A DNA stretch of 62,632 nucleotides. Origin: an uncultured Pseudomonadota bacterium (lineage in GTDB: Bacteria > Pseudomonadota > Alphaproteobacteria > Rs-D84). The position numbers and the translations under genes were made by a program. Below the pieces are notes generated by a model that saw nothing but the letters and a program-made list of their open reading frames with translations, made no database searches and had not been told where the DNA came from. The stretch is taken from NCBI GenBank assembly GCA_949296475.1, contig CASFOK010000018.1, positions 1 through 62,632 on the forward strand. The letters run 5' to 3'. Every line of letters begins with the position of its first letter. Position 1 is the stretch's first letter. This document shows positions 2,967-59,126 of the stretch, piece by piece.

Positions 2967-2995
2967 TTGCAAAATATACAAAAACTTGATATAAT
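2967..2995 (+). promoter_or_regulatory. Sigma70-type promoter for the leader RNA at 3002
   Basis: TTGCAA (2967-2972), a 17-nt spacer, then TATAAT (2990-2995) preceded by TG one base away, making an extended -10 element (TGATATAAT). The start of transcription should be near 3002. It is among the best promoter matches in the window and reads straight into a strongly structured segment. Confidence 0.75.
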
Positions 2996-3001
2996 TTTCA
3001 G

Positions 3002-3194
3002 TAAATCAAATACAGTCTATTAGGTTTTGGGGTTTTCAAAAGCCCAATAGGTCCGGTGCAAATGCATCGTTATATCCCTGACTATGGTCGGGGGGCTGAC
3101 TGCTATAAAACAGGTCTAAACCAAAGGCAGCAGAGTCATTGACCTATATGATTTTTGAACTCCCCGACCGCGTAATTTTAGCGGTCTATTTGTT
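3002..3194 (+). ncRNA. Structured leader RNA / riboswitch-like attenuator, class unknown
   Basis: A strong promoter leads into about 190 nt of dense base pairing. A long closing arm pairs 3023-3025, 3029-3032, 3037-3041 and 3047-3053 (ATAGGTC) with 3167-3169, 3162-3165, 3153-3157 and 3141-3147 (GACCTAT). Inside are hairpins at 3076-3093 (CCCTGAC/GTCGGGG) and 3097-3138 (TGAC-TGCT with AGCA-ga-GTCA, capped by GGT-CTAA-ACC). The 3' end is a terminator-like hairpin, GACCGC (3166-3171) with GCGGTC (3181-3186), then TATTTGTT. GGTCGGGG (3086-3093) is perfectly complementary to CCCCGACC (3162-3169), which overlaps the terminator arm, so pairings compete as in an attenuator. It does not match 6S, SRP, tmRNA or any riboswitch core that I know. 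A free-standing small RNA is the alternative. Confidence 0.6.
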
Positions 3195-3242: not shown

Positions 3243-3791
3243 TTGGCTGATTATATAGACGCCAAAGAACAAATTATTATTGATACGCGTAAGAACGCCA
3301 GGGTATATTTGTATTCAAGTCTGCTAAAATCTTTGTTCGTTTCTTTATTTTTGACGCTTTTTATTAGCCAACTTGTTTATATGGGAATTTTTTGGATGAA
3401 TTTTGGTGTGGCAAGTGGTGTAGAATCTGGGTTTTCCGTTGGTTTTACATTTGTTGCCTTTTTGTTTATGGTCTTGTATATGTTGTCTTTTTTGTTGATT
3501 TATAACAATCAACGTTCAATAAGGTATGTTTTAACAAATTGTGGTATATATAAAATTACTGGGTTGGTTTTTAAACGTGTGAAATTCGTCGCATATAATC
3601 AAGTTACAGATGTAAAAATGTCCAGAGGACCCATAGAGCGTATGTTTGGCGCGGGCTCTATTGGCGTTGGAACGGCCAGCGGTAATGTCGTCGGCAATGG
3701 TTATATATATTCAAAAAACGAGTTAGATATAGAATCTGTGGACGATTATAATAATATCAGAGAGATTATTATTAAACAAAGGAAGCAATAA
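3243..3791 (+). CDS. Membrane protein with bacterial PH domain (bPH2/DUF304 type)
   Basis: About 182 residues. Two membrane helices near residues 28-50 and 65-90 are followed by a YdbS-like bacterial PH domain (RYVLTNCGIYKITGLVF, then AYNQVTDVKMSRGPIERMFG). Such proteins sit in the inner membrane with the PH domain facing the cytoplasm; their exact role is unknown. The start is uncertain. TTG at 3243 is the only standard start nearby, but the strong AAGGAG at 3208-3213 is 29 nt away. In-frame ATA codons at 3219 and 3222 are 5-8 nt from it, so a non-standard AUA start adding seven or eight residues is possible. The gene lies directly behind the structured leader at 3002-3194 and may be controlled by it. 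Confidence 0.7.
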   Translation: MADYIDAKEQIIIDTRKNARVYLYSSLLKSLFVSLFLTLFISQLVYMGIFWMNFGVASGVESGFSVGFTFVAFLFMVLYMLSFLLIYNNQRSIRYVLTNCGIYKITGLVFKRVKFVAYNQVTDVKMSRGPIERMFGAGSIGVGTASGNVVGNGYIYSKNELDIESVDDYNNIREIIIKQRKQ

Positions 3792-58563: not shown

Positions 58564-58761
58564 TCATATTTTCTTTTTGCGTTTTTCTGATTTAATCATT
58601 GCTTTGATTTCTTTTTGTACTATTCGCAAATGTTGTTGTATATCTGTCAGTGTGACATCTGGTTCAACCTTGTACGAAGCAACCAATTCTTTTAAGATTT
58701 CACATCTGCGACGCGTTTGTGCATCTTCTTGTCCGATGAATTCCAGTTTAAACAAGCTCAT
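58564..58761 (-). CDS. Small hypothetical protein behind the duplicated leader (65 aa)
   Basis: Start at ATG 58761 behind GGGGGAC. The helical charged protein (KLEFIGQEDAQTRRRCEILK, VEPDVTLTDIQQHLRIVQKE, basic end KSEKRKKKI) is not recognised. It is the only gene directly behind leader copy 1 (58777-58871), with 15 bp between, so it is the likely target of that attenuator-like element. Cytoplasmic; the basic tail might bind nucleic acid. Confidence 0.6.
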   Translation of the reverse strand: MSLFKLEFIGQEDAQTRRRCEILKELVASYKVEPDVTLTDIQQHLRIVQKEIKAMIKSEKRKKKI

Positions 58762-58776
58762 ACTGTCCCCCGTTTT

Positions 58777-58871
58777 GTTAAACAAAAACCACCAGAAATA
58801 TCGGTGGTTGGAGGATAAGAACTATAACACAGTATAGCGGGTTTATTCAATATATTCACCGCCCTCCAACC
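58777..58871 (-). promoter_or_regulatory. Attenuator/riboswitch-like leader, copy 1
   Basis: Read on the minus strand: GGTTGGAGG (58871-58863) pairs with CCTCCAACC (58814-58806) to close a three-way junction with two inner hairpins, GCGG.../...CCGC and CTATA/TATAG. Then AACCACC (58809-58803) and GGTGGTT (58793-58787) with TTTTTGTT form a terminator. The closing helix and the terminator share four bases (AACC), so they exclude each other. This is the logic of a transcriptional riboswitch. It precedes the 65-aa gene. Confidence 0.65.
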
Positions 58872-58886
58872 AAGGTTGATTGTTTT

Positions 58887-58915
58887 ATTATAACAACCAA
58901 TCGTATAAATTGAAA
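58887..58915 (-). promoter_or_regulatory. Promoter reading into leader copy 1
   Basis: Minus strand: TTTCAA (58915-58910), 17-nt spacer, extended -10 TGTTATAAT (TATAAT at 58892-58887). Transcription would start near 58880, just before the closing helix. Confidence 0.55.
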
Positions 58916-58950
58916 CCGACTTTTTTTAGGCAGTTTTTCTCCTTTGTTGC

Positions 58951-59045
58951 GTTAAACAAAAACCACCAGAAATATCGGTGGTTGGAGGATAAGAACTATA
59001 ACAGAGTATAGCGGGTTTATTCAATATATTCACCGCCCTCCAACC
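58951..59045 (-). repeat. Attenuator/riboswitch-like leader, copy 2 (direct repeat)
   Basis: 94 of 95 bases are identical to 58777-58871; the one change is in the loop of the CTATA/TATAG hairpin. A possible -10 (TATACA, about 59060-59055) lies just upstream on the minus strand. After its terminator comes AAAGGAG and a short run without an ATG gene, so the gene formerly behind this copy seems lost. It lies in the leader region of recG on the other strand. Confidence 0.85.
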
Positions 59046-59126
59046 GAGATGTATTGTATAATTAATTTATCCAAGATTCTATTATTTTATTGCGAAGTTT
59101 TGGTATTTTGACTACCTTTATATCAT

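Follow-up and report, generated by a model that had tools for sequence, protein, structure and literature searches.

The window analysed here is a 62,632-nucleotide (nt) stretch of DNA from an uncultured Pseudomonadota bacterium (contig CASFOK010000018.1). Its minus strand carries two direct repeats, at 58772–58890 (copy 1) and 58946–59064 (copy 2). We conclude, with a probability of roughly 0.7, that these repeats represent a c4-type antisense leader RNA, present here in two shortened copies, and that they belong to an expanded, apparently domesticated family of c4-type antisense/attenuator elements. Hitherto, c4 RNA has been familiar chiefly from phages P1 and P7, which use it as a control device. 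A complete member of the family is ~200 nt long and comprises a promoter, hairpin H1 with segment a1, a linker with segment b1, hairpin H2, a segment termed seg1 and a core that carries segment b' in the loop of hairpin P3 and segment a' in the junction strand J3/1. The intrinsic terminator, whose 5' arm base is common to the 3' strand of the closing helix P1, is followed by a ribosome-binding site and a gene. At the level of sequence, our comparisons demonstrate these parts, their pairings, the overlap of P1 with the terminator and the linkage to genes.

The tandem leader copies and their core

The two copies are 92% identical over 119 nt at a spacing of 174 nt. Tandem stretches of 95 base pairs within them differ by a single mismatch, and the cores differ at one of 88 positions, which sits in the P3 loop. 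In each copy, P1 (GGUUGGAGG/CCUCCAACC) encloses two hairpins and is followed by the terminator AACCACC/GGUGGUU-U5, with AACC common to both helices. The exact string GGTTGGAGG occurs at just four sites in the window, the P1 arms of both copies. Both are short forms in which a' and b' are kept and a1/b1 are absent. The pair and its surroundings comprise the following features (G044 is the genome of a sister species; aa, amino acids).

58784–58871 (−): core of copy 1, a c4-like three-way junction (P1-P2-P3) with terminator; short form without a1/b1
58863–58871 (−): P1 5' strand of copy 1, GGTTGGAGG
58806–58814 (−): P1 3' strand of copy 1, CCTCCAACC; AACC at 58806–58809 doubles as the 5' arm of the terminator
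58784–58809 (−): intrinsic terminator of copy 1, AACCACC..GGTGGTT plus T5, predicted from sequence; the helix covaries
58887–58892 (−): predicted −10 box of copy 1, TATAAT; the G044 counterpart is also TATAAT
58958–59045 (−): core of copy 2, short form; the a1/b1 domain absent here is present in the syntenic first copy of G044
59037–59045 (−): P1 5' strand of copy 2
58980–58988 (−): P1 3' strand of copy 2
58958–58983 (−): predicted intrinsic terminator of copy 2
59053–59058 (−): −10-like box of copy 2, TACAAT, a match to the consensus
58939–58945 (−): AAAGGAG behind copy 2; CTG where a start codon would be expected, and CTG also in G044
58564–58761 (−): gene for a 65-aa protein (MSLFK..), kept in G044 behind the second copy; no Pfam match

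A preliminary description of this DNA had reported two near-identical copies of a three-way junction, each with a terminator that shares bases with the closing helix, and both sequence and folding bear this out. The −10 elements that it placed just before the helix on the minus strand can be read as the putative boxes listed above. As it also stated, copy 1 leads into the 65-aa open reading frame (ORF), and copy 2 has a ribosome-binding site without a gene. Copy 1 lies 22 nt ahead of the ORF, whose ATG has GGGGG 5 nt before it; behind copy 2 there is no start codon. The P3 loop of copy 1, ATACTGT, has a 7-nt match at the start codon of the gene that follows (ACAGTAT); the match is not kept in G044 and could be due to chance.

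The fold energy of the window copies on the transcribed strand is unimpressive (z −1.4 to −1.6), and the case for a structured element therefore rests on comparative evidence. When the same genome (882 kb in 21 contigs) was searched at the DNA level, another tandem pair, ~76% identical, was located on contig C4, together with fragments at other sites. From these two pairs we built a covariance model, R1, out of four copies. The preliminary description had proposed to search the genome and its relatives, to list the genes behind the copies and to analyse covariation. R1 detected the element in 54 of the 58 genomes of the genus that were searched (E≤1), with at least 43 copies in the top genome, and the genes behind the copies were listed. 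Other families of the order gave weak or few matches only.

In an alignment of 104 distinct copies, which was fitted to the model and thus favours structure, 97.5% of cells in the core pair, compared with a mean of 83.6% after shuffling. Two-sided changes were found at 17 of 19 core pairs, and all five measures of covariation lay above 500 of 500 shuffles; every helix of the element shows covariation. Sliding the 3' partner by one column reduced core pairing to 56–59%. P1 occurs in the types GGUUGGAGG, GGUCAGGAGG, GGCUGGAGG and GGCAGGAGG, each with a matching partner, and the terminator helix also covaries. The P2 loop (L2) of all copies carries a conserved GAAUA-n(2-6)-(G)AAUAA, the last A of which is replaced by C in some copies where the C can pair with the first G.

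Copy-specific pairings and the c4 architecture

In most copies, a TATAAT-like box is followed by hairpins H0 and H1, the linker, hairpin H2 and an A-rich stretch. The H1 loop (a1) is complementary to J3/1 (a') and the linker (b1) to the P3 loop (b'); the sequences differ between copies and match within a copy, as in TTAAGAA/TTCTTAA and TTACACG/CGTGTAA at locus L012 or TGACTAC/GTAGTCA and CTTACG/CGTAAG at locus L052. Across 103 copies, the mean run of a1:a' was 6.84 with a copy's own partner and 5.17 with swapped partners (largest of 2000 permutations: 5.47), and that of b1:b' was 6.99 versus 5.97 (largest of 2000 permutations: 6.32). Seg1, which lies just ahead of P1, is complementary to the P1 5' strand, with at least six pairs in 93 of the 103 copies versus 10.7% of shuffles, and it matches the P1 type of its own copy (A×A 7.26, A×B 4.54; B×B 7.52, B×A 4.25). 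RNAfold, run without pseudoknots on four leaders, preferred seg1 plus terminator over P1 by about 3–5 kcal/mol, suggesting that P1 would need the a and b contacts.

The annotation of the phage P1 record runs in the order a1, b1, c4 (77 nt), a2, b2, icd, ant. Folding of this c4 yielded helix P1 and hairpins P2 and P3, with CUGUCAA in J3/1, complementary to a1 TTGACAG, and CACUAAC in L3 (the P3 loop), complementary to b1 GTTAGTG. The leaders of the genus share with P1/P7 c4 the order promoter-a1-b1-core-(a2-b2)-gene, a three-way junction of ~77–90 nt, and the location of a' in J3/1 and of b' in L3. They differ in sequence, in an intrinsic terminator that overlaps P1, in the mostly missing a2/b2, in the secreted, envelope and helix-turn-helix (HTH) genes behind them and in their dozens of copies per genome. 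The antirepressor is silenced by c4 at the level of translation (PMC12197685). A further analogy, in broad outline, may be drawn to the CI RNA of phage P4 (seqA/seqB/seqC), an antisense RNA that is cut from a leader and pairs with target copies up- and downstream; in the summary given in PMC4825925, CI terminates transcription prematurely through its pairing with seqA and seqC. P4 differs in that it controls its replication genes by termination within the operon.

Copies 1 and 2 of the window gave no match in an Rfam search and were not reported by the model RF02221 (sRNA-Xcc1). In several relatives, RF02221 matches the core at a score below the gathering cut-off of 53 bits (43.7 bits, E 1.6e-6), and sRNA-Xcc1 has the same core, AAUA..GAAUAA in L2 and a closing helix ending in CCACC. 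In a survey, RF02221 was present in 52 of 397 sampled Pseudomonadota genomes, with up to nine matches per genome, and in 0 of 14 controls. At 27 RF02221 loci of other Pseudomonadota, a1/b1 and a2/b2 pairings went beyond 3000 permutations in all four tests, a second copy of both target sequences (a2/b2) lying around the Shine-Dalgarno sequence of the next gene. Among 22 loci scanned, the genes behind the element encode Bro-N (5), Rha (3), P22_AR_N (2), SymE (2) and KilA-N (1). At the SymE locus L224, TGAACA and CTCACAGG make up the downstream copies, and CTCACAGG is part of the Shine-Dalgarno sequence. In one genome, a sub-threshold match to c4-2 RNA (RF02944; L234:2890-2958, −) lies 1.3 kb from an RF02221 element.

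sRNA-Xcc1 is an 88-nt RNA mapped by rapid amplification of cDNA ends (RACE; PMC2996969). According to a 2025 integron paper, it travels in integron cassettes and lies upstream of symE, with a mechanism suggested to diverge from that of E. coli SymR (PMC12444791). The family has been described as a trans-acting small RNA (sRNA), whereas our analysis of the 27 loci describes a c4-type element with a1/b1 and a2/b2.

The preliminary description also likened the copies to a riboswitch. Its structured leader with overlapping terminator and linked genes holds up; the riboswitch reading is not supported, as J3/1 and L3 vary and are complementary to upstream segments copy by copy, as in c4 antisense RNA. 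An orphan riboswitch, whose three-way junction and conserved L2 loop would bind a metabolite and whose P1 stability would set termination, could account for the leader position, the P1/terminator overlap, seg1 as the alternative strand, the strong conservation of GAAUA..GAAUAA and the many targets of one functional flavour (envelope, secreted). We nevertheless regard it as improbable, since J3/1 and L3 are free to vary provided that the upstream segments match, topology and layout are the same as in c4, and the relatives control phage antirepressors and SymE, not a metabolic pathway. The purine riboswitch has a three-way junction of similar size before a terminator, but the leaders lack its core bases, and we rejected a known riboswitch after Rfam riboswitch models, purine or other, gave no match. 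With c4-type pairings, a ligand pocket is not needed to explain the fold, the conserved L2 loop excepted.

Linked genes, copy number and history of the pair

Behind 83 of the 98 copies that were fetched, an ORF of at least 45 aa preceded by a ribosome-binding site starts 15–39 nt after the terminator. A crude test assigned a hydrophobic N-terminus to 59 of the 83 products. Pfam identified HTH_3, HTH_31, HTH_19, HTH_26, PAP2 and outer-membrane beta-barrel domains, with the majority of products having no family, and PHROGs identified phage-type repressors and regulators. The usual targets in the genus are secreted, envelope or small HTH proteins; a phage antirepressor as the controlled gene was found among the RF02221 relatives but not in the genus.

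Copy numbers reach ~50 per ~1-Mb genome, dispersed on both strands. In searches of single genomes, G049 gave 56 matches at E≤0.1 (49 at E<0.001) and G058 gave 42. One stretch of G049 (L257:1-950, on G049:C2) holds four tandem elements at ~200-nt spacing with no long gene between them, and only the last precedes an ORF. The matches listed in a pattern scan of named genomes were metagenome-assembled genomes, most of them labelled Alphaproteobacteria or Rickettsiales and most of them from animal gut (rumen, rectum, caecum and the like). They include Candidatus Enterousia intestinigallinarum and Ca. E. scatequi; the window genome therefore probably belongs to an Enterousia-like bacterium, and the genus would be Candidatus Enterousia and its kin.

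The preliminary description had held that dozens of dispersed copies without linked genes would speak for a repeat element. Dozens were indeed found, yet genes are linked to them and their helices covary. A dispersed repeat or mobile element without regulatory role, such as a miniature inverted-repeat transposable element or an integron attC-like site, would fit the dispersal of up to ~50 copies over both strands of a genome and the carriage of the related sRNA-Xcc1 in integron cassettes (PMC12444791). It is highly unlikely in view of the fixed spacing to start codons, the copy-specific pairings and compensatory changes among copies of low mutual identity, and type B copies that lack the GTT required of attC ends. 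An integron attC was rejected specifically: paired RYYYAAC/GTTRRRY ends are not found, and type B copies begin with GGTCAGGAG and end with CTCCTGACC. Two peptide readings were also rejected. A leader peptide, read in the frame GW[RS]xxNILNK across the element, is contradicted by an extra base in c3 and by P2 spacers that change in steps of one base. Against a type I toxin peptide behind c2 and c3, the short frames there have no start codon and are displaced from one species to the other.

In G044, the pair likewise lies between recG and the gene for the small protein. The first G044 copy possesses a1/b1: a1 ATCAAAA fits J3/1 UUUUGAU, and b1 AACAGAGTA is a perfect fit to the P3 loop of the second copy and fits that of the first with one mismatch. 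The second copy is a short form. About 100 base pairs at this place have no counterpart in the aligned window sequence, a gap that is most simply viewed as a deletion. Copies of the same species are distinguished by 1 of 88 positions and copies of different species by 5–6 of 89; the latter differences include shared changes in J3/1 and the terminator loop. This pattern indicates concerted evolution, in which gene conversion homogenises the copies. Of the two origins that the preliminary description offered for the near-identity, gene conversion thus stands and recent duplication is not needed: since the tandem pair occupies the corresponding site next to recG in G044, the duplication is older, and the near-identity reflects homogenisation.

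A putative attenuator switch and other copies in the genome

We propose that each leader acts as an antisense attenuator of its own gene. Pairing of a1/b1 in cis with a'/b' would hold core and P1 together and block the base of the terminator, so that the gene is transcribed. If cores released from earlier transcripts occupied a1/b1 in trans, or if the cis contacts failed, seg1 would take the P1 5' strand, the terminator would close and the gene would be off; seg1 plus terminator would be the default state. Where a2/b2 flank the Shine-Dalgarno sequence, the core may also block translation, as c4 does. Distinct a/b sequences would insulate the circuits from one another. Of the steps in this model, the direction of the switch is the least secure.

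Several findings weigh against a c4-type assignment. The model assigns no function to the conserved L2 motif GAAUA..(G)AAUAA, which could bind a protein or ligand. Segments a2/b2 near the gene are not significant across the genus (J3/1 5.30 versus 5.12; L3 5.94 versus 5.79), so translational repression appears to have been mostly lost in the genus or never present. A free core RNA that acts in trans is hypothetical in the genus, with an indirect parallel in the 88-nt sRNA-Xcc1 (PMC2996969). No Rfam C4 (RF01695) or c4-2 (RF02944) match was found at any of these cores, and RF02221 scores stay below the 53-bit cut-off throughout the genus (36–44 bits in relatives, 37–41 bits in the own genome). 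Because sequence models do not place them in C4, we file the leaders as c4-type in architecture and probable mechanism, not as members of RF01695. Finally, the window copies lack a1/b1, and a genome-wide pattern search gave no convincing cognate a1-b1 site: the pattern ATAAGAAN{2,30}ACASAG had five matches, two of them the complementary strand of the elements themselves and three unremarkable, and its reversed control had two.

For the window copies, we envisage that each is transcribed from its own promoter into a ~95-nt RNA resembling sRNA-Xcc1, with the copy 1 terminator still attenuating the 65-aa gene; alternatively, they may be decaying. It is also possible, though doubtful, that copies 1 and 2 are not leaders but stand-alone trans-acting sRNAs of the sRNA-Xcc1 kind, which would be compatible with a c4-type family origin. 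Their short form spans ~95 nt from adjacent promoter to terminator, close to the 88 nt of sRNA-Xcc1 (PMC2996969), copy 2 has no gene, and arrays without long genes between copies exist (L257). However, the pattern search revealed no a1/b1 or a2/b2 partner of theirs at other genomic sites that would be convincing, and copy 1 lies 22 nt from a gene conserved in two species.

A wider proposal, which we give an even chance, is that a genus of genome-reduced gut alphaproteobacteria turned a phage-immunity antisense device into one of its main gene-control layers. A ~1-Mb genome would hold up to ~50 c4-type attenuators with private addresses, each switching one secreted, envelope or regulator gene. 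The addresses would drift, spread by gene conversion and in this way rewire, and sRNA-Xcc1, which is catalogued as a virulence sRNA, would be the wider branch of the same class. If so, the c4 architecture is widespread in Pseudomonadota, sRNA-Xcc1 regulates its adjacent gene, e.g. symE, which would explain its role, and Ca. Enterousia multiplied the architecture into a regulon-sized set of orthogonal RNA switches. A phage regulatory RNA would then have grown into a large regulatory layer of a reduced genome, and would offer a natural, testable library of insulated antisense attenuators.

Complete elements occur elsewhere in the same genome. The C19 element (L254:1909-1997, −) has the full set: a1 TTAATCA, b1 CTGATATTA, a', b' and terminator, then a2 TTAATCA-AAAGG-b2 ATATTA-CAATG, and its gene encodes a secreted PAP2-type protein. 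Elements on C7 (L255:1983-2087, −) and C21 and at window positions 2990–3185 (+) have a1/b1, core and terminator-like hairpin; the genes behind them encode a PAP2-type protein, a porin and a bPH_2 membrane protein, respectively. Secreted PAP2-type proteins stand behind three elements, those of C19 and C7 and L112 of G044. The third element of the window has the following features.

2990–2995 (+): putative −10 box TATAAT
3030–3045 (+): H1 hairpin; a1 TTCAAAA in its loop (3035–3041), complementary to J3/1 TTTTTGAA
3047–3053 (+): b1 ATAGGTC, complementary to the P3 loop GACCTAT
3086–3177 (+): c4-like core, folding as a three-way junction; RF02221 37.1 bits, below cut-off
3167–3185 (+): terminator-like hairpin ACCGC/GCGGT, no clean T-run
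3243–3791 (+): gene for the membrane protein with bPH_2 domain; start codon uncertain, the open frame reaching the Shine-Dalgarno sequence with no ordinary start codon right after it

The contig C4 pair (L008:3079-3480) consists of two tandem long forms. The b1 of the copy labelled c4 fits its own loop and its a1 fits J3/1 of copy c3, a mismatch that looks as if rewired by gene conversion. Nearby, a sub-threshold match to Wolbachia WsnRNA46 on both strands (L008:2268-2429) marks an inverted-repeat element, and two degenerate tRNA-like repeats (gggtggttagctcagttggtcag..; L008:3566-3810) stand directly ahead of an intact tRNA gene with the same beginning.
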